A stretch of 64,000 bases of DNA from Pontibacter liquoris (GTDB lineage Bacteria > Bacteroidota > Bacteroidia > Cytophagales > Hymenobacteraceae): assembly GCF_022758235.1 (NCBI RefSeq), contig NZ_JALEBG010000002.1:620001-684000 (forward strand), given 5' to 3'. Below are positions 856-16,988 of this stretch, piece by piece; position 1 is the first letter of the stretch, and every line of letters starts with the position of its first letter. Under the pieces are notes generated by a model. It ran no database searches and had not been told where the DNA came from. It saw only the letters and a program-made list of their open reading frames with translations. Position numbers and translations under genes: made by a program.

Positions 856-880
856 ACCGCATCAACGTATAAGTTAACGT

Positions 881-917
881 AAAGGCCGGCTGTTCAGAAG
901 AACAGCCGGCCTTTATA
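881..917 (+). terminator. Intrinsic terminator of the AsmA-like gene
   Basis: A perfect 14-bp stem (881-894 paired with 901-914, core GGCCGGCTGTT) closes a 6-base loop. The T run after it is short. It sits 25 bases beyond the stop codon at 853-855. Confidence 0.75.
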
Positions 918-1020
918 CTTTGGCGGGGTATTTCCCGCATAACCTGTTGCAGGGTGTACAATAAGAGGATGCAGTTTCGATTAATACTGTATATTCGTTA
1001 TACTATATTATCCTCGCTGC

Positions 1021-2922
1021 ATGAAACAACTTATACTCCCCTTCCTGTTTTGCCTCCTCTTTGCGCTGCTGCCCGGCCACACACTCTTCGCCCAGGACTG
1101 TGCCGGGCCGGCCATACCTGCTGCCGACAACGTAGAAACATGTGCCGGTTACTGGACCACACTCCTGGTAAAGCAGCCTGATGCCAGTCTTACCTATAGC
1201 TGGTATACTACAGCAACGGGTGGTATACCTTTGGCAAGCGGCGCGACTTATACGACACCAGAGCTCACGCAGACGGTTACCTTTTACGTGCAGGCCGAAA
1301 ATGGCTGTGGCCCCAGTGAGCGGAAGGCTGTAAAAGTAACGGTGATATCTCCGGTGGCCAACAACAGCGTTGCCGGCGACCAGCAGGTATGCCCGGGGCA
1401 GGTGCCGCAACGTATAAGCGGTTCATTGCCAACCAGCGGTGGCGATGTGTATACCTATCTTTGGGTTAGCAGTACCGATGGGATCAATTTTAATGTTCCG
1501 GCAGCCGGCATCAATGATGCGCAGCACTATACCCCTGGAGTGTTATCACAGACCATGTGGTTCGAGCGGATTGTCTACGGCTCTTCCGCGTGCCAAAAGT
1601 CAATTAGCAACAGGGTTAAGATCACGGTAAGTGCAAGCATCACCAATAACACTGTCAGCGCCGACCAGACGGTTTGCAGCGGTACTGCTCCGGCAACGTT
1701 AGCGGGAGCTGCTCCTGCTGGCGGAGACGGCACTTATACTTATCAGTGGGAATCTAGCACCGATGGCACAAATTTCAGCCTCGTGCAGGGAGCCAGCACG
1801 AAGGATTTTACACCAGCTACCCAAACGGCCACAGCCTGGTACAGAAGAAAAGTACTTTCAGGCATGTGCGCCGAAAGTATAAGCAATACCATAAGTATAA
1901 GAGTCGGCACGCCCGCTACGCCGGTGGTAGAGAAAGCCGGGACGGCCTGTGCCGGAACCGTGATCACCCTGCGCATCCTGCAGCCGGTTGCCGGCCTTAC
2001 CTACCAATGGTACCGTAATCTGGGGGCACTGCCTATTGCCGAGGGTGCTACTGTTACGACAACTGTACTGGCAACCGATTCTCTCTACAGTGTGCGGGCT
2101 GTTGGCGCCGGGGGCTGCACAAGTGACCGTGCTCATACCTGGATAACGGTCGTCCAACCAATTTCGGGCAACCAGATAGGCCAGCCGCAAACGATTTGCA
2201 CCGGCGAGATCCCGCAAGCACTGGCAGGAGCCGTGCCGACGGGCGGCGGCGCAGAAATAACCTATCGCTGGGAGGTAAGCACCGACAGCCTGACTTATAC
2301 TTCGGCGCCGGGCGCCAATGCCGCCCAAGCATATCATCCCGAAGCGCTTACCACCACGGCCTGGTTCCGGCGGTTAGCAACTGCCGGCACCTGCGCCGCC
2401 AACATCAGCGACCCGGTAAAAATAACCGTGGCCCCACTTCCGGCGCAACCCGCCATCACCCAGCAGGCAACAGAACTAACGGCCGGCGTAGTAGCAAGCC
2501 GGTATGAGTGGCTCCTGGACGGGGTGCTGCTGCCCAATGCAAGCACAGCCACCATTACAGTCCCGGCTTCGGGTACCTACCAGGTGAGGGCGCAGAGCGC
2601 GTCCGGCTGCTACTCCGGCTATTCCGAAGCATGGCCGGTTGTCCTTTTGCCCACCGGCATTGCCGAACCAGCCGGGGAAGCCGGTATTGTGGTGGCGCCA
2701 AATCCGTCGGCAGGCAAGGTACTGCTACACACGCAGCGGCCCTTTCGGCATGTGGTCATCTCCGTACAAAGTATGGCCGGCAAAGAGGTGCGCCGCTTTG
2801 AGCAGCAACAGCTGCAAGCCTGGCAGGAGCTTAACTTAACAGGTCTGGCCGACGGATTATACTTGCTTTACATTCAGGCAGATAGCCTGCGGGTAGTGCA
2901 AAAGCTGCAGCTCTCCCACTAA
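1021..2922 (+). CDS. Secreted Ig-like repeat protein with T9SS type A sorting domain
   Basis: A 633-residue exported protein. Residues 1-24 are a signal peptide ending LFAQ. An Ig-like module of the kind common in Bacteroidota surface proteins follows (about 40-110; pattern YSWYTTATGG, then TFYVQAENGCG). Three modules of about 95 residues begin near residues 113, 208 and 382, each with an NN/GN start, a conserved Cys-x-G, P-GG, Y-W-SSTDG and W-x-RR. The last 80 residues (VAPNPSAGKVLLHT, then LADGLYLLYIQ) match a type A C-terminal sorting domain that is cleaved when the protein leaves through the type IX secretion system. The modules are shared with the 3284-6871 protein. No PorP/SprF gene directly follows, as expected for type A cargo. 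Its role as adhesin or matrix protein is inferred. Confidence 0.85.
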   Translation: MKQLILPFLFCLLFALLPGHTLFAQDCAGPAIPAADNVETCAGYWTTLLVKQPDASLTYSWYTTATGGIPLASGATYTTPELTQTVTFYVQAENGCGPSERKAVKVTVISPVANNSVAGDQQVCPGQVPQRISGSLPTSGGDVYTYLWVSSTDGINFNVPAAGINDAQHYTPGVLSQTMWFERIVYGSSACQKSISNRVKITVSASITNNTVSADQTVCSGTAPATLAGAAPAGGDGTYTYQWESSTDGTNFSLVQGASTKDFTPATQTATAWYRRKVLSGMCAESISNTISIRVGTPATPVVEKAGTACAGTVITLRILQPVAGLTYQWYRNLGALPIAEGATVTTTVLATDSLYSVRAVGAGGCTSDRAHTWITVVQPISGNQIGQPQTICTGEIPQALAGAVPTGGGAEITYRWEVSTDSLTYTSAPGANAAQAYHPEALTTTAWFRRLATAGTCAANISDPVKITVAPLPAQPAITQQATELTAGVVASRYEWLLDGVLLPNASTATITVPASGTYQVRAQSASGCYSGYSEAWPVVLLPTGIAEPAGEAGIVVAPNPSAGKVLLHTQRPFRHVVISVQSMAGKEVRRFEQQQLQAWQELNLTGLADGLYLLYIQADSLRVVQKLQLSH

Positions 2923-2943
2923 AAGAAAGTATAGCTATGGCTC

Positions 2944-2986
2944 AACAGGCCCTGCATCCAGCCATGGTTGCAGGGCCTGTTTTTTT
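2944..2986 (+). terminator. Intrinsic terminator after the type A cargo gene
   Basis: A perfect 13-bp stem (2944-2956 AACAGGCCCTGCA with 2969-2981) is followed by a seven-base T run. It lies 21 bases after the stop of the upstream gene. Confidence 0.9.
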
Positions 2987-3221
2987 AAATCCTTTCGGGC
3001 AACTTAAGCCATGCAATTTGCTCACTGTTAAATCGTTTACTAATTACCCCTTGTGAAAATTGTTAGCTACCGTGTAACCTTTTAAAGGAATTAGCAATAG
3101 AGGTAGTGGGTTATTATCTTTCCCTCCCTGGCACTGGTCGGCTAAAAACGATATTTTTGTATTTCGCAGCGTTGCTCCGAAGCCGGTCTGCCTCCGAGCT
3201 GCAGGAACTGGTGAAATTCTG

Positions 3222-3229
3222 TAAATTTG
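3222..3229 (+). promoter_or_regulatory. Candidate Bacteroidota -7 box upstream of the giant type B cargo gene
   Basis: TAAATTTG is an exact match to the TAnnTTTG box, 55 bases before the ATG at 3284. A second exact match, TATTTTTG, lies at 3152-3159. No convincing TTG -33 box is at the usual distance from either, so these are candidates only. The stretch 2923-3283 otherwise contains just the terminator at 2944-2986. Confidence 0.4.
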
Positions 3230-3283
3230 GAGATTAGTATATAGTAGCCGTTAAGCCTATAGTCCACCCTTAACCTATACCTG

Positions 3284-6200
3284 ATGCGCCTGTTTTTACC
3301 TAAGCACTACACCTTGTTTCTGCTGTTGCTGTGCTTTATTGTGGGGAGGCCCCTGGTGGCACTAAGCCAGACCTGCACAGTGTCGATAGAATCGAACCGG
3401 GGCACCACGCTGTGTGAAGGAGAATCAATAGAACTGACCAGCCGGCCGGGTGCGGGCTTCACGCCCACTGCCTGGCAGTGGTACCGGGACAACCAGCCGC
3501 TGGCCGGCGCCACTTCCGCTACCTATACTACCAACGTGGGGGGCGTTTACCGGGTAGAAGCTTCCGGAGGAGCATGCGCCAAGGTGCCATCCGGCGACTT
3601 TTCGGTGACCGTAGTCCCAACGCCTGCCAAACCGATTTTCAGCATCAGCAACAACAATACCTGCGCCGGCACCGCGCTGGAGTTTACCGTGATCAACCCG
3701 CAGCCCGGTGTTGTTTATACCTGGGATTTTGGCGATGGCAGCATCTCCAATCAAAACCCCGTTACCCATACGTATGAGGCCAAAGGCACCGGCGTAGCTT
3801 CCTTCGATGTGTCGGTGTTCGGGGTGAGTCCGCAGGGCTGCTCCTCCGATACCCTCACCCAGTCGGTTTCTGTTAAAAAGGTGCCAGAGATAGCCTTCAC
3901 CGAGAAGAACGATTTCCAGGTGTGCCTGCCCGACAGCGTGGAGCCGCAGGACACCGCCGTCTTTGCCGAGCTCACCAACGTTACGGCCGACAATTTTAAG
4001 AACGACATTAACACCTATTATATAGACTGGGGCGATGGCAAAGAAGTCCCTTATCCGGCTAAATCCACAACCTTCCCTTTAAAGGCTCCCAACGCTTTTC
4101 CTGACCTGGGGGATTATACGATCAAGGTTCGCGGCGAGAATACGAACCAGTGCAGCGCCTTGTTCGAGCAGGTATACAGCTACAGCAAAAAGCCCAAAGC
4201 CAACTTTACCCTCGATAAAAAGTCCTCGACAACGCCGGGCAACTGTACGCCTATCATCGTGTCGTTGGGCGACAGCTCGACGGGTGGTAACCTGACCTAC
4301 CTCTGGGAGATAAAAGACCAGAACAACATCGGCGGCTACTCCATTGTTTTCGGGGGGCTGGACCAGGATACGCTCCAGATCGAATTTACCCTGCCCGGTG
4401 TTTTCCAGTTACAGCTGGTGGTGAGCAACGGCTGCGGCAGCGATACCACCGAGCAAAGCATTGTGGTAGGTTACCCGCAGGCCCAGTTGCCGGCGCCCGT
4501 TATTGCCTGTGGCGACACCACTATCAAGTATAACGCTCAGAATACCTTTATTGATGCCAACCTGGGGAAGATCACCAAGTATGAATGGTTTGTAGATGGC
4601 GCGTTGGTCTCGGGCGAGCAGTTTCCGGAGCTGACCTTTAACCGACCCGGCGTGTACAAGGTTTCGCTGCGCGTCACCAACGACTGTGGCACCAGCGACG
4701 ACATCGGGCCGCCGCAGCCGCAGGAAATCACCATCAACCCCGTGCCTTCCAAGCCTATTGTGCAAGGCCAGACCACCTGCGCCGGCGATTCGGTTACGCT
4801 CCGGCCGCAGGCAGCCGGCACTTACGAATGGTATGACCAGCCTACGGGCGGTACATTGCTGGCTTCCGGTGCCTCTTTCACCACGCCCCTGCTGAACCAG
4901 ACCACTACCTTTTATGTGCAGGCCAAAAGCGATTTAGGATGCAGCAGCGAGCGCGTGCCTGTGATCGTGACCGTAACGCCCGCCATTGATAATAACGTGA
5001 TCAGCCCGGTAGCGCAGAGCATCTGCAAAGGCGGCACGGCCTCCCAGCTTACCGGCACTGCGCCAACAGGCGGGCCGGGCACCGGCTATACTTACACCTG
5101 GCAGGCCAGCACCACCGGCCCTGATGCAGGATTTGCCCTGGCCAACGGCACCAACAATGCCGCCGAGTACACCCCTGCCGCCCTCAGCCAGACCACCTGG
5201 TTCCGCCGCGTGGTGAGCTCTGGCACCTGTACCGCCGACACCAGCGATGCCGTGCAGGTAACCGTGGTGCCTGTGATCGAGAACAATACCATCAATGCTT
5301 CGCAGGAGATCTGCGCCCAGGAGCAGCCCGCCCCCCTGACCGGCACGCCCCCTACCGGAGGCGACGGCGTAACCTTTGCCATTAGCTGGGAGGTGAGCAC
5401 CGACGGCCCAACCACCGGCTTTGTGCCTGCACCCGGTAACAACACAGGGGCAAATTATACACCCGGTGTGCTGACGCAGGATTCCTGGTTCCGGCGTGTG
5501 GTAGCATCCGGCGGTTGCCAGATGGCCTCCGAGCCCGTTAAGATCAGCGTACTGCCCGCTTTGGCAAACAACACCATCGCCCAGGACCAGAACGTTTGCC
5601 GGGGCACGGCACCGCAGTCGCTGCTGGGTTCGGCCCCGACAGGTGGTAATGGCAAGTATACGTACCTCTGGGAGAGCAGCACCAGCAGTGCCACCGGCGG
5701 CTTTACGGCTGCGGCAGGCACCAACAATGGGCAGAGTTATAACCCCGGGGGCCTTAGCCGCACTACCTGGTTCCGGCGCATCATAACAACCGGCTCCTGC
5801 AAAGCCGACACCAGCGCTGCTGTGCAGATCACCGTAAGCGAAGGCGTGACCAACAACAGCATCACCGCCAGCCAGACGGTTTGTGCCGGGCAAACACCCG
5901 CCACCCTGACAGGCTCTGCGCCTACCGGGGGCACCGGCACCTATACTTACCTGTGGCAGAGTAGTACCATCAGCCCTGATGCCGGGTTTGTGGATGCCGC
6001 AGGCGCCAACACGGGTACTACCTATTCGCCGCAGGCGCTGACGCAGAATACCTGGTTCCGGCGCCTGGTTACCTCGGCCGGTTGCGCCGATACTTCTGCC
6101 GCTATTGCCATCACGGTTACACCGGTGCCCAAGGCGCCAAGCCTGACCGTGCGCGATGCCGTGGCCTGCCAGGATAGCTCCGCGACCTTAACCGTGCAGG

Positions 6201-6871
6201 ACCCGGGCAGCAGCACAACGTACGAATGGTATACTGCGCCTGCAGGCGGCAGGCCGGTGTTTATCGGACCTGTTTTCCAGACGCCCGCCCTATCGCAGCC
6301 GACCACTTTTTATGTGCAGGCGGTAAATACGAGCGGTTGCAGCAGTGCTACCCGCACACCGGTAGCCGTAAACGTGATCCGGGCTGAGGCGAATGCCGGG
6401 CCGGATGTGACCATCATCCAGCGCCGCACCACGGAGCTTCGGGCATCGGGCGGCGCCACCTATCATTGGGAGCCAGCCACCGGCCTCAGCAGTCCGGATG
6501 TTGCTAACCCGGTAGCCCGCCCCGACGTCACTACCACCTATACGGTAACCGTGACAACGGCCGAAGGCTGCCAGGCAACCGATGAAGTGACCGTGACTGT
6601 TATTCCGGCCATTACCATACCCAACGCCTTCTCGCCTAACCACGACGGCGTGAATGAAGTATGGGAGATCGAGAACATTCATAATTTCCCGGAAGCACGT
6701 GTGGAGATCTTTAACCGCTGGGGCAACCTACTTTATACTTCGAACGGGTATGGCACGCCCTGGGATGGCACCTACAATGGCCAGGAACTGCCGGTAGCCA
6801 CCTACTACTACATCATATACCTCAACAGCACCGAGAAGCCCATCTCAGGCAACGTGACTATTATCCGATGA
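3284..6871 (+). CDS. Giant PKD/Ig-like surface protein with T9SS type B sorting domain
   Basis: A 1195-residue exported protein with a signal peptide (about 1-29, ending ALSQ). In order: an Ig-like domain, a PKD domain near residue 145 (YTWDFGDGS, then THTYEAKG), further PKD-like segments (YYIDWGDGKE; NLTYLWEIKD), an Ig-like module (about 495-565), four tandem modules of about 95 residues (570-950), another Ig-like module, and a type B (CHU_C, gliding-associated) C-terminal domain from about residue 1112, marked IPNAFSPNHDGVNEVWEI, FNRWGNLLYTS and NVTIIR. Type B cargo usually needs a PorP/SprF partner. Here the stop codon overlaps the start of such a gene in ATGA, which implies translational coupling. 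It is probably a cell-surface adhesin or gliding-type filament protein; the ligand is unknown. Confidence 0.9.
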   Translation: MRLFLPKHYTLFLLLLCFIVGRPLVALSQTCTVSIESNRGTTLCEGESIELTSRPGAGFTPTAWQWYRDNQPLAGATSATYTTNVGGVYRVEASGGACAKVPSGDFSVTVVPTPAKPIFSISNNNTCAGTALEFTVINPQPGVVYTWDFGDGSISNQNPVTHTYEAKGTGVASFDVSVFGVSPQGCSSDTLTQSVSVKKVPEIAFTEKNDFQVCLPDSVEPQDTAVFAELTNVTADNFKNDINTYYIDWGDGKEVPYPAKSTTFPLKAPNAFPDLGDYTIKVRGENTNQCSALFEQVYSYSKKPKANFTLDKKSSTTPGNCTPIIVSLGDSSTGGNLTYLWEIKDQNNIGGYSIVFGGLDQDTLQIEFTLPGVFQLQLVVSNGCGSDTTEQSIVVGYPQAQLPAPVIACGDTTIKYNAQNTFIDANLGKITKYEWFVDGALVSGEQFPELTFNRPGVYKVSLRVTNDCGTSDDIGPPQPQEITINPVPSKPIVQGQTTCAGDSVTLRPQAAGTYEWYDQPTGGTLLASGASFTTPLLNQTTTFYVQAKSDLGCSSERVPVIVTVTPAIDNNVISPVAQSICKGGTASQLTGTAPTGGPGTGYTYTWQASTTGPDAGFALANGTNNAAEYTPAALSQTTWFRRVVSSGTCTADTSDAVQVTVVPVIENNTINASQEICAQEQPAPLTGTPPTGGDGVTFAISWEVSTDGPTTGFVPAPGNNTGANYTPGVLTQDSWFRRVVASGGCQMASEPVKISVLPALANNTIAQDQNVCRGTAPQSLLGSAPTGGNGKYTYLWESSTSSATGGFTAAAGTNNGQSYNPGGLSRTTWFRRIITTGSCKADTSAAVQITVSEGVTNNSITASQTVCAGQTPATLTGSAPTGGTGTYTYLWQSSTISPDAGFVDAAGANTGTTYSPQALTQNTWFRRLVTSAGCADTSAAIAITVTPVPKAPSLTVRDAVACQDSSATLTVQDPGSSTTYEWYTAPAGGRPVFIGPVFQTPALSQPTTFYVQAVNTSGCSSATRTPVAVNVIRAEANAGPDVTIIQRRTTELRASGGATYHWEPATGLSSPDVANPVARPDVTTTYTVTVTTAEGCQATDEVTVTVIPAITIPNAFSPNHDGVNEVWEIENIHNFPEARVEIFNRWGNLLYTSNGYGTPWDGTYNGQELPVATYYYIIYLNSTEKPISGNVTIIR
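4991..6124 (+). repeat. Four tandem ~95-residue modules inside the giant cargo gene
   Basis: Modules begin at codons 570, 667, 762 and 857 (bases 4991, 5282, 5567 and 5852). Each reads NN-I, a Cys, L-G-PTGG, W-SST, YTP/YNP-L, WFRR and a second Cys about 75 residues after the first. The same module occurs three times in the 1021-2922 gene. The DNA copies have diverged, so this is an old protein-level duplication. Confidence 0.9.
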
Positions 6872-7836
6872 TGCATATGAAAAAGCTGTTTATATTATTG
6901 GTTGCCTTTATGGGGGTTGCAATGCAGGGGGTGGCACAACAGCGCCCGCAGTACAGCCAGTATATGCTTAACAATTATCTGCTTAACCCTGCCATCACCG
7001 GTATCGAGGATTATGCCGATATCCGGGTAAGTAACCGCCGGCAATGGGTTGGGCTGGATGGCGCCCCGGTTACCTATTACCTGACGGCCCATACGCCCCT
7101 TAACAAAGGGGCTGCCAGCAACAAGTTCCACAAAGAGCTGGCGCACCACGGCGTTGGCATTGCCTTCCATACCGACAAGACAGGGCCATTGCGCCGTACC
7201 GGCCTGACCGGCTCTTACGCCTACCACCTGCCCCTTACACGGACCATTAACGTAGCCGCCGGCGCTGCAGTAGGCCTTATCCGGAACTCATTGAATGCAG
7301 GTGAACTGGCGTTTACAAATCCCAACGACCCGCTGGTAGGCGGCGGTAACCTGAACAACAACCAGCTGGACCTGAACCTGGGGTTGTGGCTCTATTCCAA
7401 AAACTTCTCGTTGGGTGTGTCGGGCGCGCAGCTGCTGGAGGGCACCGGCAGTTTCCGTTCGCCGGAAGAGAGCAGAGCCGCTTTTGGCCTGCAGCGGCAC
7501 TATTTTGTAACCGGTGCATACCGCCTGCAGCCAACAGAAACGATAGACATTATACCGTCCGTTATGGTAAAGCTGGCCGATCCGAGTCCCGTCTCGATTG
7601 ATGCCAGCGTGCGGGCCATTTACGATAACCGCTTCTGGGTGGGTGCCGCCTACCGCCACGAGGATGCAGTGGTTGGTATGGTGGGCGTATACATCAGCCC
7701 TTTGCTGGATGTCTCCTACTCGTATGATGCTACCATCTCGAACCTGAATAAAGTGAGCGCCGGTACCCACGAGATCGTGGTGGGCTTTAAGCTGCTCAAC
7801 AATCACCGCATTATCTGCCCTGAATGGATCTGGTAA
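6868..7836 (+). CDS. PorP/SprF-family outer-membrane protein, partner of the 3284-6871 cargo
   Basis: A 322-residue protein of normal length for the PorP/SprF family. It has a signal peptide (MKKLFILLVAFMGVAM, then GVAQQ), followed at once by the family hallmark RPQYSQYMLNNYLLNPAITG and, further on, RRQWVGLDGAPVTYYL. The rest is amphipathic beta strands of an outer-membrane barrel, with NNRFWVGAAYRHEDAVVGMVG near the end. In Flavobacterium johnsoniae SprF is needed to export the type B adhesin SprB through the type IX machine; the same job for the cargo encoded just upstream is inferred from the 4-base ATGA overlap. The third codon-level ATG at 6877 is an alternative start and leaves the signal peptide intact. 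Confidence 0.92.
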   Translation: MMHMKKLFILLVAFMGVAMQGVAQQRPQYSQYMLNNYLLNPAITGIEDYADIRVSNRRQWVGLDGAPVTYYLTAHTPLNKGAASNKFHKELAHHGVGIAFHTDKTGPLRRTGLTGSYAYHLPLTRTINVAAGAAVGLIRNSLNAGELAFTNPNDPLVGGGNLNNNQLDLNLGLWLYSKNFSLGVSGAQLLEGTGSFRSPEESRAAFGLQRHYFVTGAYRLQPTETIDIIPSVMVKLADPSPVSIDASVRAIYDNRFWVGAAYRHEDAVVGMVGVYISPLLDVSYSYDATISNLNKVSAGTHEIVVGFKLLNNHRIICPEWIW

Positions 7837-7864
7837 GCTAACACCTGAACAGGAATATACTGAG

Positions 7865-7896
7865 AGCCCCGCTGCCCCTAAGCAGCGGGGCTTTTT
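7865..7896 (+). terminator. Intrinsic terminator after the first PorP/SprF gene
   Basis: A perfect 10-bp stem (7866-7875 GCCCCGCTGC with 7882-7891), a 6-base loop and a T run. It lies 30 bases after the stop and separates the two cargo/SprF units. Confidence 0.92.
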
Positions 7897-8321
7897 GTGC
7901 CTATACGATGCCTGAGGCACATTTTACTATATAGCATTACATATATTATAAGCAATGTCTTACTTTCGCTTAACCTGCCGTGGTGTACAAAATGTATACT
8001 TTCTTATAGTTTTCATTATATGCATTCAGTGCTTACTATATAGGTATGCGCTTTGTAAATGATAAAATTTAAATTTTTTAGTAAAATTAGGATTGCACTA
8101 TAATTAATTGAAATTTAGGTAGTGGAAAGCGGCATCATGTAAAATATGGCTATGCGTTATTTTTATATATGATTATAAAGCCATAATATTGTGCCGAAAA
8201 AGAAATCAACAAGAGAAGTGAAGAGCGGAAGTAGTTGATTTTGTACAATGTAGCCATAGCGGACTATTCCAACGGTTCTACAAAGGAGGAAATTATAAAG
8301 TAAAATTTTATACAACTTTTA
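7897..8321 (+). other. AT-rich leader region before the second cargo operon
   Basis: About 420 bases, clearly more AT-rich than anything around them, with no credible open frame. The word TTACTATATAG occurs twice (about 7925 and 8033). No full TTTG/TAnnTTTG promoter is seen; the nearest boxes carry one mismatch (TAATATTG at 8184-8191, TGATTTTG near 8235). An AAGGAGG lies about 33 bases before the ATG, too far for a normal ribosome site. It probably holds the promoter and regulatory sites of the 8322 operon. Confidence 0.5.
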
Positions 8322-11300
8322 ATGAGAAGCTTATTAGGAAAAGTTATACTTCTGATAGTATGCTTTTACACGGTATCCCTTCTGGCTTCCGCCCAGTGGG
8401 CAACAGCGCGTGCCGCAAAACCTGCTACTTCTGTCAATGCGCCAGGCCTACCAAAGAAATCTGTGAGCCTCCCTTTTGCTTTTGTAGCGGCCGATGCCTC
8501 TGCTGACCTGAGAATTACGTTACAGAAAAGCCCGGGAAGTATTGCGGTGGATGACTATAAACTGGGCGAGGAGATCACCTATACAATAACAGTAGACAAC
8601 CTGGGGCCCGGTAATGAGACCGGCATAAAGGTGAATTTGGTTTTACCGGGACAGATCAAGAGCACCACGCCAAGCAATGGCGTGGCCATGCTTGCGGCAA
8701 CGCCTGATAACAGCATCAGCAGCGGCTACTGGACGATCAGCAGTATGGTAAGTGGCAGCAGCGCCACGCTTAAGGTGGTTACCACCCTGCGGGTAGCCAG
8801 CAATGCGGGTGCCTCTGTTTCCGTGGCCGGTGCCGGCGTAGATAAAAATCAACCGAATAACTTTGCCAACCTGTTCTTCTGCGTCGTGCCCGCTGCGGCC
8901 GGGGAGATCCAGGGCCCCACTGCGGTCTGCACAGGGCAGGCTTATACGTATCAAATAGCCGCCGTACCGGGCGCTTCTTTTTATACCTGGACGTTTCCGG
9001 CCGACTGGGATGTAGTTGTCGATCCGGATAACCAGGAAATTGCTACTGTCCGTAAAGCAGGTAGTTCCGGTAAGGTTTCGGTGGCGGTAGGAAATACCTG
9101 CGGCGTGGGTCCGGCAAGAGTGCTGGATGTAACAGCAACTACCGGCAAGCCCATTATCACTTCGCCGGTGCAAGGCAAGCAATACCCTTGCGTTAACACC
9201 CTCATCACCTACGACATAACCCCTGTAAGCGGCGCAAGCGGCTACTCCTGGACAGTACCCGAAGGATGGGCTATTCAGGGTGCTTCCAATGGGAGCAGCA
9301 TCTCGGTAAAAGTGGGCTCCGCAAATGGACAGGTTACCGTAAAGGCCGTTAATAACTGCGGCGAAGGCGACATAAAATCGCTGGATGTTTTCCCGCAGAG
9401 CGCAGCGCCGGCAGTACCGACTATAACCGGCGAAAGTAGCGTTTGCCAGGGTTCCGGCGGCCATAGCTACAGCATCCCGGCTGTGCCAGGCGCTACGTAT
9501 AGTTGGGCCGTGCCGCAGGGATGGCAGATCACAGCCGGACAAGGGACCAACAACATCACCGTGAACGCAGGCAGCTTAGAAGGGAATGTCAGCGTAACGG
9601 TTAGCAACGACTGTAACCTGAGTGCCACAGCCAGCTTTGCTGTCAAGATGGTGCCATCCCCTCCTCCCACACCGAAAGAGATCCTCGGCCTCTCGGTGGT
9701 ATGCGCCAATCAGACTAACATCACCTATACGATTGCCCCGGTGCCAGGCGCCACCTCCTACCGTTGGGAAGCGCCGGGCTGGAAGATCGTTTCCGGCGGA
9801 AGCACCACTACGGTAACGCTCGATGCCGGCACGACCGGCACCACCATTTCTGTGGTGGCCATTAATGCCTGCGGTGTAACAAGCGCGGTGCAGAAAGCCA
9901 CCGTGGTGGCGCAGGCTGCTCCCCAAAAGCCAGGCCCAATTACTGGTAACGCGCTGCCTTGCGTGGGCAAGACCTATACGTATACTATTGCTGCGGTAGC
10001 AAACACGGCTACTTATACCTGGGGCGTGCCGCAGGGTTGGACGGTTGTGTCGCAGGAAGGAACCACGTTGAAAGTAGTAGCCGGCAGCCAGAACGGCGAT
10101 ATCAGTGTAACAGCTGCCAACGGCTGCGGTGCAGGCGCTACAACCACCTTGCCTGTAAAACCTGTTTCGGGCGCACCGGCCGGTTTAAAGATAAACGGGC
10201 CAGCCAATGTATGTGCCGGTTCTGTGGTTACCTATAGCCTGGAGCCGGGCGTCAGCGCTTCCGGGTATAGCTGGTCAGTGTCTGTAGACAAAGGCTGGGC
10301 GATTCAGGGAGCTGCTAATGGCACGTCCGTTACAGTAAAAGTGGGCACTGCCGATGGCACCGTAAGTATCACCGCCACCAACGATTGCGATGCAGCCACC
10401 AAGAGCCTGCCAGTGGCTGTTTCAACGGCAGCGCCAGTTCAGTTAGGCCCTATCAGCGGAAAAACGACGATGTGTGCCGGTGCTACCGAGACTTATACCA
10501 TTCAGCCGGTAGCCGGCGCCGCCAGCTATGCCTGGACGCTGCCGCAAGGCTGGACGATCATTTCAGGCGACGGCACCACCTCCATTACTGTAAAAACAAC
10601 AGCTACCGCAGGCCAGGTAGCAGTAGCCGGCGTGAACGCCTGCGGTGCCGGCGGAACGAAATCCGTGTTAGCGGTTGCGCCGCTGGCCGGACCACCTGCC
10701 GCGCCTACCAGCATCCGGCAGTCGGTTGCTTCGTTCTGCGGCGGCACCCCGGGCATTGTCTTTAACATCGATCCCATTGCAGGCGCTACAGCTTATACCT
10801 GGAGCGTGCCACAAGGCTGGCAGATCACGGCCGGACAGGGCACCACCAGCATTACCGTAACAGCAGGCACAGCAGCCGGTGATTTGAAAGTATACGCCAC
10901 CAACACCTGTGGTCAGGGAAACAGCCAATCGCTTGCCCTGGCACCGCAGCAGCTACCGGCCGCGCCCAAACTTACAGCCGGCCCCGCAGAGCCCTGCAAC
11001 GGAAGCAGCACCAGCTATAGCGTGGAGCCGCTGGCCAATGTAGATAGTTATACCTGGGAGCTGCCACAGGGCTGGACGATTCTTTCCGGTGCCGGCACTG
11101 CTTCTATTACCGTACTGCCTACTGCCACAGCCGGCACCCTGAAAGTAAGCGCCGTTACCGCCTGTGGTACCGGATCGGCCACAATGCTGGTGGTTACGCC
11201 TGTTACCGGCAAGCCAACAGCACCGGGCATGATCCGGGGCGAAGCCAGCGTATGTACCGGGCGTACCGTTACGTATACCGTGGATGCTGCCTTAAGAGCC

Positions 11301-11981
11301 TCTTCTTACGCCTGGACCCTACCCGAAGGCTGGACGATTGTGGAAGGCCAGGGCTCCACCACCATCACGGCAAAAGCCGGCAGCCAGGGTGGCACGCTAA
11401 CAGTAGAAGCCGTGAATGGCTGCGGCAACAGCTTAAGCGCCACCATGGCGCTAAACGCACAACCGCTGGCCGAGCTGGGCGAGATCGTGGACCTGAGCAC
11501 GCCATGTGCCGGGCTGAGCTACGAAGTAGCCCCTGTGGCCGGCGCCAGCAAGTATACCTGGAGCGTGCCGGATGGATGGGAGATCACCTCCGGGCAGGGC
11601 ACAAATAAAGTTACGGTTAATCCGGGCACCACGACCGGCAACATCGGCGTGGTAGTAGACAATGGCATCTGCCAGAGCGAACCTTCCCTGCTTACGCCCA
11701 ACACCAACCTGCGCAACAGCGAGATCATTGTGCCGAACGTGTTTTCGCCGAACGGCGATGGCAACAACGATACCTGGGTGATCCGGAACCTGGAAAACTA
11801 CCCGGATAATGACTTGACTGTGATAAACCGCTGGGGCAACGAAGTATACAGAAGCAACGCTTACAAAAACAACTGGAACGGGAGTAACCTGAGCGAAGGC
11901 ACTTATTACTATGTTGTGCGGGCAAAAATGTGTGACGGCACTTCAAAGTTGTTCAAAGGCTACGTGACGATAGTAAGGTAA
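8322..11981 (+). CDS. Giant PKD-like repeat surface protein with T9SS type B sorting domain
   Basis: A 1219-residue exported protein. After a signal peptide (about 1-25) comes a DUF11/CARDB-like beta domain (about 65-185; ADLRITLQKSPGS, then EITYTITVDNLGPGNETG). Eleven PKD-like repeats of about 80-95 residues follow (about 193-1125), each with a Cys near the start, TYTI, GA-Y-W, PQGW-I, G-GTT-ITV and N-CG. The C-terminus is a type B sorting domain (IIVPNVFSPNGDGNNDTW, then INRWGNEVYRSN, ending YVTIVR). The stop codon shares one base with the next ATG (TAATG), coupling it to a second PorP/SprF gene. Repeat number and architecture fit a long, thin surface adhesin or motility filament; substrate unknown. 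Regulation appears separate from the upstream unit because a terminator lies between. Confidence 0.9.
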   Translation: MRSLLGKVILLIVCFYTVSLLASAQWATARAAKPATSVNAPGLPKKSVSLPFAFVAADASADLRITLQKSPGSIAVDDYKLGEEITYTITVDNLGPGNETGIKVNLVLPGQIKSTTPSNGVAMLAATPDNSISSGYWTISSMVSGSSATLKVVTTLRVASNAGASVSVAGAGVDKNQPNNFANLFFCVVPAAAGEIQGPTAVCTGQAYTYQIAAVPGASFYTWTFPADWDVVVDPDNQEIATVRKAGSSGKVSVAVGNTCGVGPARVLDVTATTGKPIITSPVQGKQYPCVNTLITYDITPVSGASGYSWTVPEGWAIQGASNGSSISVKVGSANGQVTVKAVNNCGEGDIKSLDVFPQSAAPAVPTITGESSVCQGSGGHSYSIPAVPGATYSWAVPQGWQITAGQGTNNITVNAGSLEGNVSVTVSNDCNLSATASFAVKMVPSPPPTPKEILGLSVVCANQTNITYTIAPVPGATSYRWEAPGWKIVSGGSTTTVTLDAGTTGTTISVVAINACGVTSAVQKATVVAQAAPQKPGPITGNALPCVGKTYTYTIAAVANTATYTWGVPQGWTVVSQEGTTLKVVAGSQNGDISVTAANGCGAGATTTLPVKPVSGAPAGLKINGPANVCAGSVVTYSLEPGVSASGYSWSVSVDKGWAIQGAANGTSVTVKVGTADGTVSITATNDCDAATKSLPVAVSTAAPVQLGPISGKTTMCAGATETYTIQPVAGAASYAWTLPQGWTIISGDGTTSITVKTTATAGQVAVAGVNACGAGGTKSVLAVAPLAGPPAAPTSIRQSVASFCGGTPGIVFNIDPIAGATAYTWSVPQGWQITAGQGTTSITVTAGTAAGDLKVYATNTCGQGNSQSLALAPQQLPAAPKLTAGPAEPCNGSSTSYSVEPLANVDSYTWELPQGWTILSGAGTASITVLPTATAGTLKVSAVTACGTGSATMLVVTPVTGKPTAPGMIRGEASVCTGRTVTYTVDAALRASSYAWTLPEGWTIVEGQGSTTITAKAGSQGGTLTVEAVNGCGNSLSATMALNAQPLAELGEIVDLSTPCAGLSYEVAPVAGASKYTWSVPDGWEITSGQGTNKVTVNPGTTTGNIGVVVDNGICQSEPSLLTPNTNLRNSEIIVPNVFSPNGDGNNDTWVIRNLENYPDNDLTVINRWGNEVYRSNAYKNNWNGSNLSEGTYYYVVRAKMCDGTSKLFKGYVTIVR
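8898..11690 (+). repeat. Eleven PKD-like protein repeats
   Basis: Eleven copies of one 80-95-residue unit, each with a Cys about 8 residues in, a Y-x-W in the middle and a closing N-x-CG. Best seen in the recurring PQGW (or PEGW, PDGW) followed by G-GTT-ITV. Copies differ in DNA, so no recent expansion is evident. Confidence 0.88.
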
Positions 11982-12949
11982 TGAAGAAGAAAGCAACCCT
12001 CATCCGCTGGTTTCTGCTGCTGCCTGCAGTGCTGCTGGCACAAACCGCAGCGGCACAACAGGCACCCCAGTATTCGCAGTACATCTTCAATGAGCTGGCC
12101 ATTAACCCTGCCTATGCCGGCAGCAAGGAGATACTGAACATCAATGCCACCTACCGCAGCCAGTGGACGGGGCTGGAGGGTGCCCCTGTTACCCAAACCA
12201 TCAGCGTGGACGGACTGACGGCTAACCCGAACCTGGGTTGGGGAGCGCACATCGTGAACGATGCCCTGGGCGCGCAACGGCAAACGGGCGTGTATGCGGA
12301 TGTGGCCGTGCGCCTTGCCACCGACCATTATTCCAAACTGGCTTTGGGCATTTCGGCGGGCGCTGCCCAGTATGTGCTGGATGGCACCATGCTGCAGACA
12401 GGTAGCGGCCAGCCCGATGCGGCAGTGCCGGAAGGGAAAGAAGTAAAGATCCTGCCCGATGCCAAGATCGGCGTCTTTTTTAATACGCAGCGTTTTTATG
12501 CCGGCTTAACCGCGGCCAGCTTGGTGCCCTACAAAAGCGATAAGCTGCTGGTCGCTACCCCGCGGCGCCATTACTTTATCTCCACCGGCTACCTGCTGGA
12601 CCTGGGCCCCAGCCTGCGCCTGAAGCCCAGCATCCTGCTGAAGGAGGATTTCAAAAGCCCGACCAACATCGACCTGAACACGTTCCTGCTGCTCAATAAC
12701 CGGTTTTGGGTGGGCGCCTCTTACCGTACGGCAATGCCGCTTTTTACCAACCTGGAGATGAAGCAACTGGGCAAGCGGAACGCGGTGGCGGTCATGGCAC
12801 AGCTCTATGCCACGCCGCGGCTGCGCGTAGGCTATTCCTACGATATTAGCCTTTCGAAGCTGAATAACTATGCCAGCCACGAGATATCGCTGGGCTACTC
12901 TTTTTATAAGAAAAGCCACGGCCGCATCATGACGCCGCGCAACCTGTAA
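11981..12949 (+). CDS. PorP/SprF-family outer-membrane protein, partner of the 8322-11981 cargo
   Basis: 322 residues, the same length as the first copy. Signal peptide MKKKATLIRWFLLLPAVLLA, then TAAAQQ, followed by the family N-terminus APQYSQYIFNELAINPAYAG and SQWTGLEGAPVTQTISVDG, then outer-membrane beta strands with NNRFWVGASYRTAM near residue 242. The ATG overlaps the cargo stop by one base (TAATG). Sequence divergence from the 6868 copy is considerable although the architecture is the same, which suggests each SprF is matched to its own cargo. The role in export or surface anchoring of the type B adhesin is from the SprB/SprF precedent. Confidence 0.92.
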   Translation: MKKKATLIRWFLLLPAVLLAQTAAAQQAPQYSQYIFNELAINPAYAGSKEILNINATYRSQWTGLEGAPVTQTISVDGLTANPNLGWGAHIVNDALGAQRQTGVYADVAVRLATDHYSKLALGISAGAAQYVLDGTMLQTGSGQPDAAVPEGKEVKILPDAKIGVFFNTQRFYAGLTAASLVPYKSDKLLVATPRRHYFISTGYLLDLGPSLRLKPSILLKEDFKSPTNIDLNTFLLLNNRFWVGASYRTAMPLFTNLEMKQLGKRNAVAVMAQLYATPRLRVGYSYDISLSKLNNYASHEISLGYSFYKKSHGRIMTPRNL

Positions 12950-13081
12950 CAGGGAGGCAGGCCGAAAGGAAGTATAATTGCAGGAATATACAAGGGCGCT
13001 GTTTATTACTTCTGGTATATTGTCTATCTTTCATGCTTTGCCCGGCTTGCTTCGGGTGCTTGTACATTCTTTATTCTCGCC

Positions 13082-15064
13082 ATGAAATTACGGTTAACAC
13101 TTGCTTTTATCGTGCTGCTGGGTCTTCTGGGAACGCCTGCCGCCACCCATGCGCAGGACATGAAGCAGGCCGACAAATACTTCAACAACTTTGACTTTAC
13201 GAAGGCTCTGGCCGCCTACAAAGCGATCCTGGAAAACGGCGAACCCAACCTGTTGGTGGTGCAGCGCATTGCCGACAGTTACCGCATCATGAACAACAGC
13301 CAGGAAGCTGAATTTTGGTATGCCCAGGCCACCACGTTCCCAAACGCCGATCCGGCCAATTTATACCTGTATGCCGAGTCGGCCAAGCGGAACGGCAGCT
13401 ATGAAAAGGCAAAGCAGTTGTTTGAGCAGTATGGCCGCAAAGTGCCTGCCCAGGCAGCGCTGGCCCGCAAAATGGCCGCCTCCTGCGACACGGCCATGAC
13501 CTGGATCCAAGAGGCCCGGCCTTTTGCCATCACTAAGATCAGTACATTAAATTCGGAGGGCGCCGACTTCAGCCCCATCAAACTAAAAGACGGGCTGCTG
13601 TTTGCCTCCGACCGCATGCGCACCGATCCGAAACAGCAAACAGAACGCTACGGCTGGACGGGCAATGGCTACATTCAGTTATACTTTACCAAAACCAAAA
13701 CCGACAGCACCTGGGAGGCGCCCGTGCCCCTGCCCCCTTCTGTGAACACCACCTACCACAACGGCCCGGGCGCTTTCCTGGAAAAAGACCAGCTGCTATA
13801 CTTTACCCGCACGCACGTGGTGAAGCGCAGCAACTCCAAAGCCAATCCTGATCCCACCAGCTGGTTTAAAGGCAGCGAAGCCGGTACCCACACCAATCGC
13901 CTGGGCATTTACACGGCCGAGCGCAAAGGCGATAAATGGGAGAACGTGAAGCCCTTTAAGTATAACAACACCACCGCCTATTCTATGGGCCACCCGGCTG
14001 TAACACCGGATGGCAACGTGCTATACTTTGTATCGGATATGCCCGGCGGCTTGGGCGAAACGGATATTTACTTTTGCGAAAAGCAAAAAGACGGCAGCTG
14101 GGGCAAACCCGTGAATGCCGGCAACGTGATCAACACCAGCGGCCGCGAGAGCTTCCCGAGCATTGGCCAGGACGGCGTTTTATACTTCTCCTCGGACGGC
14201 CACCTGGGCCTGGGCGGGCTGGATATCTTTAAGACCTTCGGCAGCCACAATGCCTGGACCCGCGTGGAGAACCTGAAGTACCCGGTAAACACCTCGCACG
14301 ACGATTTCGGGGCGCTGCTAAACCCAGATGGCAAAAGCGGGCTGCTCTCTTCGGGGCGTCTGGGCCACAACGGCTTCGACGATATTTTCGCGTTTAAAGA
14401 AGTGAAGATCCCCTGCACGTTGACGGGCCGTACGGTAGAGCGCCTGGCACAGGGCAATGGCACAAAGCGAAAAGAGTTACCCGTGGAACATGTGCTGCTG
14501 CAGCTCTTTGAGGAAGGCTCCACCACCCCCGTGGAAGTATATTCTGACAAGAATGGCAGCTTTACATTTCCGGTGAAAGCTTCCACCAACTATACCATCA
14601 AAGGCAGCAAACCAAAATACCTGACCCAGACGCTGGACATGATGCCGGACTGCCGTTTCAATACTGATTCGGTGAAGGTGGAGATGGTGTTTAACCGCGA
14701 TACGCCGGACAAACCGATTGTGCTGGAGAACATTTACTATGACCTGGATAAATCCGAAATTAAGCCCGCAGCAGCCAAAGAACTCGATAAGCTGGTGCAA
14801 ACGCTGCGCGACAACCCGGCCATCCGCATCGAGCTGAGCTCCCACACCGACAGTCGCCAGGGCAACCGCTACAACGAGCTGCTCTCCCAGCTGCGCGCGC
14901 AGGCAGCCGTGGAATACATTATCTCCAAAGGCATTGCCCGCGACCGCTTAATTGCAAAAGGCTACGGCGAAACGCAGCTACTGAACCGCTGCACGGATGG
15001 CGTGAACTGCTCGGAAGCAGAGCACCAGGAAAACCGCCGAACCGAATTCAAGATCCTGCGCTAA
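13082..15064 (+). CDS. PorE-like protein: TPR, PD40 propeller, CRD and OmpA domain
   Basis: A 660-residue exported protein (signal peptide ending ATHAQ). Order of parts: TPR-type helices (about 30-140; ADKYFNNFDFTKALAAYKAI), PD40/WD40-like propeller blades (about 155-440; EGADFSPIKLKDGLLFASDR, YFVSDMPGGLGETDIYF, YFSSDGHLGLGGLDIF), a carboxypeptidase-regulatory-like beta domain (about 445-530) and an OmpA C-terminal domain (about 550-660) that keeps HTDSRQGNRYNELLSQLRA and NRRTEF, the peptidoglycan-binding residues. This is the architecture of PorE, the protein that ties the type IX machinery to the cell wall. Bacteroidota often place PorP/SprF and such OmpA proteins together. It may be either the general PorE or a locus-specific anchor for the adhesins just upstream. 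Confidence 0.85.
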   Translation: MKLRLTLAFIVLLGLLGTPAATHAQDMKQADKYFNNFDFTKALAAYKAILENGEPNLLVVQRIADSYRIMNNSQEAEFWYAQATTFPNADPANLYLYAESAKRNGSYEKAKQLFEQYGRKVPAQAALARKMAASCDTAMTWIQEARPFAITKISTLNSEGADFSPIKLKDGLLFASDRMRTDPKQQTERYGWTGNGYIQLYFTKTKTDSTWEAPVPLPPSVNTTYHNGPGAFLEKDQLLYFTRTHVVKRSNSKANPDPTSWFKGSEAGTHTNRLGIYTAERKGDKWENVKPFKYNNTTAYSMGHPAVTPDGNVLYFVSDMPGGLGETDIYFCEKQKDGSWGKPVNAGNVINTSGRESFPSIGQDGVLYFSSDGHLGLGGLDIFKTFGSHNAWTRVENLKYPVNTSHDDFGALLNPDGKSGLLSSGRLGHNGFDDIFAFKEVKIPCTLTGRTVERLAQGNGTKRKELPVEHVLLQLFEEGSTTPVEVYSDKNGSFTFPVKASTNYTIKGSKPKYLTQTLDMMPDCRFNTDSVKVEMVFNRDTPDKPIVLENIYYDLDKSEIKPAAAKELDKLVQTLRDNPAIRIELSSHTDSRQGNRYNELLSQLRAQAAVEYIISKGIARDRLIAKGYGETQLLNRCTDGVNCSEAEHQENRRTEFKILR

Positions 15065-15083
15065 GTATAACCGCGTCAGAGAT

Positions 15084-15127
15084 AAAAAGGCCCGTCACAG
15101 CAAGTGTGATGGGCCTTTTTGTTTTTT
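15084..15127. terminator. Bidirectional terminator between the PorE-like gene and the MoxR cluster
   Basis: A 16-bp stem with one G-T pair (AAAAAGGCCCGTCACA with TGTGATGGGCCTTTTT) and T runs on both strands. It sits between convergent genes ending at 15064 (+) and 15159 (-). Confidence 0.85.
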
Positions 15128-15158
15128 CACAAGTATAGAAATACGGTGATTGCGAGCG

Positions 15159-16988
15159 CTAAAACTTCTCTTCGAGCCATAAAAAGCCACTGCTGAGCAC
15201 AAACAGCACAAAGAACCAGAGGGGAGATATCGGTGCTTGCTGGTGAGCGAGGGCCGGTGCTGCCGGTTTTATACCTTGCTGCGCCACAAAGGCCTGCGTT
15301 GCCTGGCGGCGCTGGTAAATACCTTCGAATGGCCAGCTGGCGGCATCCTGCACATAAAAGAAGTAAGGCGGCGCACCGGCCGTGTGCACCTGATGCCAGC
15401 CGCTGTGGCGGGGCCAGAACGTGCCGCTGAACTGTGTGGGTTGCATGGGGTCTTGCGCCAGGGGCAGGCTGCTGTGCACTGAATCAGCCAGGCTGCTTAC
15501 CGTAGGAGCCGGGGGCACTGTGCCGCCGGTAAGACAGTAATTAGTATAAGTAAGTATAACCGGCTTGTTAGGGAGTGGCACCTGGGGAGCGGTGCGCTGC
15601 CAGAATTTATCCGTTACTTCTTCGCGGGCGATGGCGGACAGCAAACCGGCCCAGTAGCTGGCGTATAATTCTTCTTTCCCTTCCAGCTGCCAGTTAAACG
15701 TCTGGGGCAAAAAGCTCAGGGCCACTTTCCCCCAGCCTGCCTGCCGGGCACCCGCCAGTAAATGACTGCCTTCTGCTCGTACCAAACCAGTTACCGTTGT
15801 TGATGAAAGCAAAGTATAAGGTGCCGCAGCTGCCGTTGTGCCGACGCCGGATGCCCACAAAGCGCGGGTGCTGTGCGCGGGCTGCTGCGGAAGGCGGCGG
15901 GTTTCGAAGCCAGTGAAGAAAGCGGTGGCGCGGCTGCCGGCAGGCGCAGTGGCAACCGTCAGCACGCCCAGGCCACCGTCGGTAACGGCGCGCTGCAGGG
16001 CGCCTCTTTCGGCAGCGCTCATACTTTGCAGGGCCTCTTGCTCGGTAATCACCACATCAAAGCCCTGCAATAGTTTTGGGGTGATGGCGCTCAAGTTCTG
16101 TTGGGGCATGTTCAGCCACTCGCTTTGGTTCATCCCTTTGCTGATAGTCGCCCGCAGAGCAACGCGGTGCTGCAGCTGCCCCAAGTGGTTTTTCAGAAAC
16201 TTAAACTCAAAGGAAGGTGCCGCTGCCAGCAGAAGGATGCCCAGTTCCTTATCCGGGGTAACCTGCACAGGCACCAGCCCCAGCGTATCGGTTTGGGTAT
16301 TCGATTTGGCCAGCAAAGTATAGGTAAAGCGGCCGGATAATTTGGGCGTGTAGCGCAGCCGGAAGGTATAGGTGCTGTCGCCTGGGGAGAGCTTGACAGA
16401 ATCCTGCCGCTGGCCGGCTGCCTGCAGGTAAAGGGTTGAGGCAGTGCCGGCGGCAGTTTTATACTTGCCGCTGACAGTTACGTCCTCGCCTAACGTGGTT
16501 TGTTCGGGCCATTGCACTGCCGTAATGCCAGCGGGCAAGGCAGAAAGATGGGGAATGAGACGGATGTTTTGGAGCGCCGCCAGTTCCGTCGCATCCAGCC
16601 CTTGCCCGAGCACGTGCAGCGTGCTTAAAGCGGGGTGCTGCTGCCGCAAGGTATACAGGTCAGCAACAGGCGTGGCATCAGCTGCGGTGGCCTGATAAGT
16701 ATAAACCGTTGCTTTTTTGTTTGCCTGCAGCAGTGCTTGCAAGGTATCGGGCGCATAGCCTTCGGTCAACAGGATTGCCGTTCCCGGATCAAGGGTTTGC
16801 CGGTAGGTAGGCGGGAACACCAGCAATACCAGGCTCAGGCCGGCTAGGGCACTGGCCAGTAGCCGCCAAGGCAGCCGTTGCCGGGCAGGCCGGCGCCAGG
16901 CCTGCCACAAAAGCAGCAATACCACCGGAATTGCTAAAAGCCAGGGCAGGTAAAGCATCATACTATAGAAGGTTGTTTCCTTATTCAT
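15159..16988 (-). CDS. Large membrane protein, last gene of the MoxR cluster
   Basis: 609 residues with two N-terminal membrane helices (about 10-30 and 41-60), a long outer part and one C-terminal helix (PLWFFVLFVLSSGFLWLEEK). The middle (about 175-250) looks like an Ig-type beta domain, and the stretch around 300-345 (FDVVITEQEALQSM, then GGLGVLTVA) resembles the glutamine-amidotransferase-like fold found in membrane proteins of MoxR/DUF4159 clusters, without a catalytic Cys-His pair that I can identify. It lies 35 bases after the DUF4175-like gene and shares its strand, so it is the distal gene of the operon. An alternative start is the MM at residues 10-11. Function unknown. Confidence 0.65.
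   Translation of the reverse strand: MNKETTFYSMMLYLPWLLAIPVVLLLLWQAWRRPARQRLPWRLLASALAGLSLVLLVFPPTYRQTLDPGTAILLTEGYAPDTLQALLQANKKATVYTYQATAADATPVADLYTLRQQHPALSTLHVLGQGLDATELAALQNIRLIPHLSALPAGITAVQWPEQTTLGEDVTVSGKYKTAAGTASTLYLQAAGQRQDSVKLSPGDSTYTFRLRYTPKLSGRFTYTLLAKSNTQTDTLGLVPVQVTPDKELGILLLAAAPSFEFKFLKNHLGQLQHRVALRATISKGMNQSEWLNMPQQNLSAITPKLLQGFDVVITEQEALQSMSAAERGALQRAVTDGGLGVLTVATAPAGSRATAFFTGFETRRLPQQPAHSTRALWASGVGTTAAAAPYTLLSSTTVTGLVRAEGSHLLAGARQAGWGKVALSFLPQTFNWQLEGKEELYASYWAGLLSAIAREEVTDKFWQRTAPQVPLPNKPVILTYTNYCLTGGTVPPAPTVSSLADSVHSSLPLAQDPMQPTQFSGTFWPRHSGWHQVHTAGAPPYFFYVQDAASWPFEGIYQRRQATQAFVAQQGIKPAAPALAHQQAPISPLWFFVLFVLSSGFLWLEEKF

Follow-up and report, generated by a model that had tools for sequence, protein, structure and literature searches.

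Two type B cargo/shuttle pairs in Pontibacter liquoris and a shuttle C-terminal tail that sorts with a neighbouring PorE-like gene

A stretch of 64,000 nucleotides of the Pontibacter liquoris genome (the window; positions 620,001 to 684,000 of contig NZ_JALEBG010000002.1) encodes two giant T9SS repeat proteins, each followed by a PorP/SprF gene, and a PorE-like gene comes after the second of these pairs. The arrangement raises two questions: does each surface protein have a shuttle of its own, and what decides where each of them is fastened? Dedicated pairs of type B cargo and shuttle, and PorE-like wall anchoring of the static ones, have been published (PMC12618676, PMC9143113), as have shuttle genes directly downstream of the cargo, PorE-linked operons and a static/mobile split (PMC12618676). 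Sorting domain and shuttle are described there as deciding the static or mobile fate, static cargo accompanying PorE genes, and the available text gives no determinant of that fate within the shuttle (PMC12618676).

All features given here are on the forward strand. Unit 1 (3284-7836) is made of a cargo gene (3284-6871; 1195 aa, with PKD and Ig_7 repeats by profile search) and a shuttle gene (6868-7836; 322 aa), and unit 2 (8322-12949) of a cargo gene (8322-11981; 1219 aa, with DUF11 and PKD_6 repeats by profile search) and a shuttle gene (11981-12949; 322 aa). A preliminary description of this DNA had both giant proteins ending in a type B sorting domain, and both do carry a TIGR04131/CHU_C domain at the C-terminus, scoring 79.9 bits for residues 1110-1195 of cargo 1 (6611-6868) and 52.1 bits for residues 1137-1219 of cargo 2 (11730-11978) against a TIGR04131 cut-off of 35. 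The two shuttles match TIGR03519/PF11751 over cut-off as well (TIGR03519: 270.3 and 238.6 bits, cut-off 90.55). The type A cargo upstream (1021-2922; Ig_7 repeats and Por_Secre_tail; TIGR04183 25.2 bits, cut-off 23), given for context only, is without a shuttle partner, as had been noted: a profile search of its neighbouring genes found no adjoining PorP/SprF gene. A second type A T9SS cargo, with a matrixin-like (M10) peptidase and TIG domains, lies at 39564-41714 of the window.

A terminator hairpin (2944-2981; fold of -31.5 kcal/mol for 2925-2990) stands 5' of unit 1. The terminator between the two units, from which separate expression had been deduced, is real: the hairpin at 7862-7895 has a 14-bp stem followed by a T-run (-29.8 kcal/mol for 7855-7905), an AT-rich leader comes after it, and the whole intergenic region measures 485 bp (GC 0.34). 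A simple pattern search of 1-16000 found no Bacteroidota-type promoter (TTG, 17-23, TAnnTTTG); the -7 element alone is present upstream of 3284 and absent upstream of 8322 and 13082.

The gene after unit 2 (13082-15064) encodes TPR, a PD40 propeller, a carboxypeptidase-regulatory-like domain (CarboxypepD_reg, whose 24 bits fall short of the cut-off of 32.3) and an OmpA-type peptidoglycan-binding domain, in the order found in PorE. Its product falls below both curated cut-offs (398 bits against 600 for PorE, NF052230; 450 against 620 for CHU_0125, NF053607), and because of the NF052230 score we file it as PorE-like only. By eye, its N-terminus is an ordinary signal peptide that lacks a lipobox, and among 65 PorE-like proteins encoded next to shuttles 64 are without a lipobox-like site. 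PorE homologues of F. johnsoniae are likewise not predicted to be lipoproteins, and the puzzle of their attachment to the outer membrane has been raised (PMC7192894). Since the lipoboxes are missing, something else must hold the PorE-like proteins at the outer membrane. Shuttle 2 and the PorE-like gene are set apart by 132 bp (12950-13081) that are open in the frame of the latter, so that the two genes form one frame save for a single TAA; in most relatives of the genus this spacer is 10-19 bp.

The two shuttles differ at their ends. Shuttle 1 finishes with IICPEWIW (CPEWIW, 7816-7833; the CPxxxW class, with a single Cys) and has no PorE-like neighbour, whereas shuttle 2 finishes with RIMTPRNL, has a PorE-like neighbour, and offers TPRNL-COOH (12932-12946) as a candidate anchor-docking peptide. 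The Cys-x-Cys of the SprF gliding class is absent from both tails. In the AlphaFold2 model of shuttle 2 (mean pLDDT 81.6) a FadL-like barrel has its last strand ending at residue 308, with a disordered tail beyond; the best match in a structure search is EcFadL (E 2.1e-9, TM (query) 0.56), with the T9SS chain 8gl6_F at rank 6, and a sequence search of the PDB for a PorP/SprF relative returned nothing relevant. In all 22 tandem genomes, among the matches listed, the units contrast in the same way in tail class and PorE neighbour.

This pattern was first noticed in genomes of the same genus and a few order-level relatives, before wider sampling, and these shuttles (99 of 241 unique ones) were left out of the counts that follow, together with 3'-cut shuttles, those with a profile score under 40 and near-identical C-terminal halves. 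We asked whether shuttles with P[RQ]x[FL] at the extreme C-terminus have a PorE-like gene at most 300 bp downstream. A phylum-wide draw of 148 Bacteroidota genomes gave 142 shuttles from 31 genomes of eight families (best-scoring matches listed), and among these matches a PorE-like gene follows 51 of 53 shuttles with the tail and six of 89 without it; this first sample was not blind, as the patterns were fixed after its table had been seen, and the two later samples were. Tail and PorE-like gene agree in 134 of the 142, compared with a mean of 94.3 and a maximum of 112 in 5000 rounds of shuffling tails within genomes. Restricting the listed matches to cargo-paired shuttles (49/51 with tail, 6/60 without) or requiring the stricter [TS]P[RQ]x[FL] (45/47 against 12/95) gives a similar picture. 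The second sample consisted of the best 80 matches to unit 2's shuttle in named genomes, and is for that reason enriched for its class: 65 of 70 loci with the tail have the PorE-like gene, as does one of 10 without. The third (47 new shuttles after four duplicates of earlier samples were dropped, from families mostly unseen before; best-scoring matches listed) gave 26/27 and 4/20 among those matches, and its four exceptions without the strict tail are near variants, e.g. SPKYF and SPRHLYF. Pooled over the three samples, a PorE-like neighbour is found for 142 of 150 listed shuttles with the tail and 11 of 119 without, leaving as exceptions eight tails with no PorE-like gene within 300 bp and 11 PorE neighbours without the strict tail. 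Counted among the exceptions are a locus of the second sample with only 453 bp of downstream sequence (L275) and one whose PorE-like gene is 1674 bp away (L279).

Across 153 PorE-linked shuttles the end itself is nearly fixed (P at -4 in 94 percent, R at -3 in 92 percent, F at -1 in 93 percent) and the linker is free, with no residue above 33 percent from -13 to -9. Cysteine tails fall on the opposite side: of 64 shuttles that lack a PRxF end and have a Cys among their 12 C-terminal residues, only three adjoin a PorE-like gene, with 0/17 for CxC and 0/11 for CPxxxW-like tails. Flavobacterium piscis, a congener of F. johnsoniae, fits: PorE-like genes follow all seven of its PRFF shuttles, and none was found in the 1.5 kb read after its CxC tails (NCPCTQSPVHD and DCNCPAIN). 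In another locus of this species (L373) the PorP/SprF domain stands at the start of an open frame of 1435 aa and is followed by a long stretch of repetitive sequence. One shuttle left out of the counts (L029) ends in CPRFF, with a Cys beside PRFF, and has no PorE-like gene in 1.45 kb; it counts against docking of the tail to a PorE-like protein.

OmpA and SPOR domains are peptidoglycan binders. In six shuttles a long C-terminal extension replaces the short tail, and it contains OmpA in two (both from one genome), SPOR in two (for one of them a weak match of 23.4 bits, the cut-off being 21) and no Pfam match in the other two. Core PorP, whose P. gingivalis member binds PorE (PMC9143113), was compared where its gene lies just 5' of PorK/GldK: PR[FY] stands close to the C-terminus in 10 of 11 such proteins, 14 of 14 from other families end in [VT]R[FY]L, and the core PorP of a Paludibacter record breaks the pattern with CKCIRHL. 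As for the position of the tail, that of SprF is described as periplasmic (PMC12635249), and the FadL-family protein BamG touches BamD via its last three C-tail residues (PMC12611786), a precedent for docking by a C-tail. An AlphaFold2 model of a read-through fusion of shuttle 2 with the PorE-like protein (1027 residues; alignment of 58 rows, 14 of them fused) did not dock the tail (pLDDT below 50 at 312-368, pTM 0.58), which was no better placed than in the shuttle alone (pLDDT below 50 at 312-322); this speaks weakly against docking, since the carboxylate of the tail is not free in the fusion and few sequences are aligned.

We propose the following mechanism. Each unit pairs a T9SS type B cargo with a dedicated PorP/SprF shuttle, which, by analogy with its relatives, would take the cargo from the translocon via the type B sorting domain and remain as its base in the outer membrane. 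The short disordered extension past the last strand would set the periplasmic partner of the shuttle. We infer that TPRNL of unit 2, a form of [ST]-P-R-[YF]-F-COOH, docks the PorE-like product of the next gene, and that this protein, having no lipid anchor of its own, grips peptidoglycan by its OmpA domain and so fixes cargo 2 to the wall. In favour of docking we count the nearly invariant end behind a free linker, the disordered tail beyond the barrel, the wall-binding domains fused at that end, the absence of lipoboxes from PorE-like neighbours, the ends of core PorP and the BamG precedent. Cargo 1, whose shuttle ends in CPxxxW with one Cys and has no PorE-like neighbour, would be fastened otherwise, perhaps by a disulfide (compare the CxC of SprF). 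The preliminary description had cast the PorE-like gene as wall anchor; this is plausible for unit 2 only, the gene following that shuttle and not the two units jointly. Dedicated pairs with tail docking of a PorE-like anchor are, taken as a whole, the reading we consider fairly probable.

For unit 1 the disulfide could be given a more definite form, in which the CPxxxW shuttle, bonded to GldK by its tail Cys, moves along the gliding track as SprF does, making cargo 1 a mobile adhesin. The bond between the SprF tail cysteine and GldK is published (PMC12635249), GldK and GldJ are encoded in the P. liquoris genome, and neither CxC nor CPxxxW-like tails have PorE neighbours in the counts above. 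Cys tails are also found in all five shuttles encoded directly upstream of gldJ (L001:9204-11516, L157, L171, L192 and L195); these may form a further tail class that has a partner to itself. However, shuttle 1 has a single cysteine, SprF without its second cysteine bonds inefficiently (PMC12635249), and gliding of the P. liquoris strain is without support, so that we regard a mobile unit 1 as possible, if doubtful.

Another explanation concerns the P-R-x-F end itself, which could be a mere mark of a subfamily, or a signal for insertion into the outer membrane, with the PorE-like gene co-inherited and no contact between the two. Most PRxF shuttles do form one clade, an old one, in the tree. 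A final aromatic residue is common in outer-membrane proteins, which we count in favour of an insertion signal, and CPxxxW and CPxF tails likewise end in W or F; against this, the tail of the modelled shuttle lies past the last barrel strand (ending at 308). Common ancestry and dependence were compared on a tree of 284 rows built without the tails. On supported branches, independent pairs differing in the tail differ in the PorE-like gene the same way in about 4.9 cases, the opposite way in 0.1 and not at all in 5.0 (p about 0.06). The supported pairs numbered 3, 7 and 10 as rows grew, the opposite direction never exceeding 0.1 on average, and no test of tail against PorE was clearly below 0.05; with pairs chosen instead to differ in PorE, the median p was 0.03, then 0.06 with more rows. 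A likelihood test of correlated evolution, a kind of test in which a small number of deep changes can weigh heavily, gave LR 49.1, against a maximum of 9.7 for 60 trait pairs simulated independently on the same tree (redrawn until both traits lay between 25 and 80 percent), and this argues against a mere subfamily mark. The fitted rate of tail loss is 2.2 without an adjacent PorE-like gene and 0.16 with it. Furthermore, unit 2-like shuttles that end in NFCYF, RCSYF, RCYF or CKCKDLYN have no PorE neighbour (L250, L257, L261, L262, L263, L265 and L278, with only 869 bp downstream for L250). Co-inheritance without contact seems unlikely to us; the association of tail and PorE-like gene is well supported, and a causal reading of it is likely, short of proof.

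The pairing of cargo and shuttle is conserved. Both units are found in tandem in 22 of 24 genomes of the genus among the matches listed (unit 1 alone was found in the stretches read of G002 and G024), and no genome of the genus that we examined has a unit 1 or unit 2 shuttle parted from its cargo, in keeping with the fixed pairs that had been suggested. Tight spacing is conserved too: with first-start ORFs, none of the 48 genus orthologues listed has a gap of more than 27 bp between cargo and shuttle genes; in the phylum sample the gap is at most 30 bp in 86 of 111 listed pairs, and zero or negative in 19. The overlaps from which the preliminary description started are in the sequence (ATGA at 6868-6871 and TAATG at 11979-11983), the exact one in unit 1 depending on the start chosen because shuttle 1 has further in-frame ATGs at 6871 and 6877, but they are not conserved in the genus: gaps are negative in eight of 25 unit 1 and five of 23 unit 2 orthologues (13 overlaps in all), and overlap as a device for a set ratio was dropped on that ground.

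When shuttles are compared with sorting domains, a comparison proposed at the outset, their distances co-vary: r is 0.686 for 109 listed pairs of the phylum sample, and swapping partners within genomes gives a mean of 0.129 (sd 0.047, maximum 0.291 of 1000). For all 182 cargo/shuttle pairs r is 0.84, against 0.34 with partners swapped, and in 1055 of 2297 comparisons (46 percent; expected 27 percent) the shuttle and the sorting domain that are nearest in another genome come from a single pair. These distances support the view that sorting domains and shuttles evolve together as pairs, as the published cognate-shuttle model predicts. It is very unlikely that the two cargos share one mode of handling and anchoring, with either shuttle serving both and the gene pairs ensuring supply only: F. 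johnsoniae does show shuttle crosstalk and one shuttle for three orphan cargos, but that crosstalk concerned CTDs of high sequence identity (PMC12618676), and both the pairwise co-variation and the differences between the units in the 22 tandem genomes speak against it. Strict one-to-one pairing is nevertheless not expected, as crosstalk and shared shuttles have been reported (PMC12618676, PMC9143113).

The P. liquoris genome has eight PorP/SprF genes and 10 TIGR04131 matches (11 for CHU_C). A type B cargo gene is immediately upstream of five of the eight; the remaining shuttles are the core PorP encoded within porPKLMN, one that precedes gldJ and one in reversed order. The reversed arrangement (L005:7863-8870 and L006, on contig C3 of this genome) places a CPxxxW shuttle about 480 bp ahead of a giant type B frame, an open frame of 5167 aa. 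No shuttle adjoins five cargo genes of type B or CHU_C (L008-L012, one with a weak domain match), which resemble the orphan cargos of F. johnsoniae.

Among known systems, F. johnsoniae Fjoh_3952-3951-3950 and other PorE-linked operons share with unit 2 the order of cargo, shuttle and PorE-like gene, and the one PorE-linked cargo imaged in this species is static; they differ from unit 2 in their cargo repeats, and the available text states no role for the shuttle C-tail (PMC12618676). SprB-SprF of the same species resembles both units in that the type B cargo has a PorP/SprF shuttle to itself, and unit 1 in having no PorE-like neighbour (PMC12635249, PMC9143113); the Cys-x-Cys of the SprF tail is bonded to GldK, whereas unit 1 has the single Cys of CPxxxW and unit 2 none (PMC12635249). 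In P. gingivalis PorP binds PorE, and the PorP-PorE-PG1035 complex likewise joins a PorP-type barrel, a type B cargo and PorE; however, this PorP is a product of the porPKLMN operon and its PorE partner a lipoprotein (PMC9143113), while here the PorE-like gene is beside the shuttle gene and its product lacks a lipobox. Among the matches listed from the open literature we found no mention of a PRxF tail of PorP/SprF proteins, subscription papers being mostly outside the search. As far as the open literature shows, what is new is that a C-terminal peptide of the shuttle sorts with the PorE-like gene, that Cys tails fall on the opposite side, and that this end is also where fused wall-binding domains occur; the system in the window is a known kind of pair with a previously undescribed tail class.

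These comparisons suggest, and do not prove, that a short address tag at the end of the shuttle decides where a surface protein is fastened. The wider idea, to which we give about an even chance, is that the shuttle C-tail serves as a general address label: [ST]PR[YF]F-COOH would lead to a non-lipidated PorE-like anchor (static), CxC to the GldK track (mobile), and CPxxxW and CPxF to other partners, with OmpA and SPOR fusions skipping the label. For the static or gliding-track fate of an adhesin, the five C-terminal residues are a candidate that small mutations and tail swaps could test. If the label were general, a genome would tell where each type B surface protein is destined, and thousands of type B proteins could have their fate predicted.
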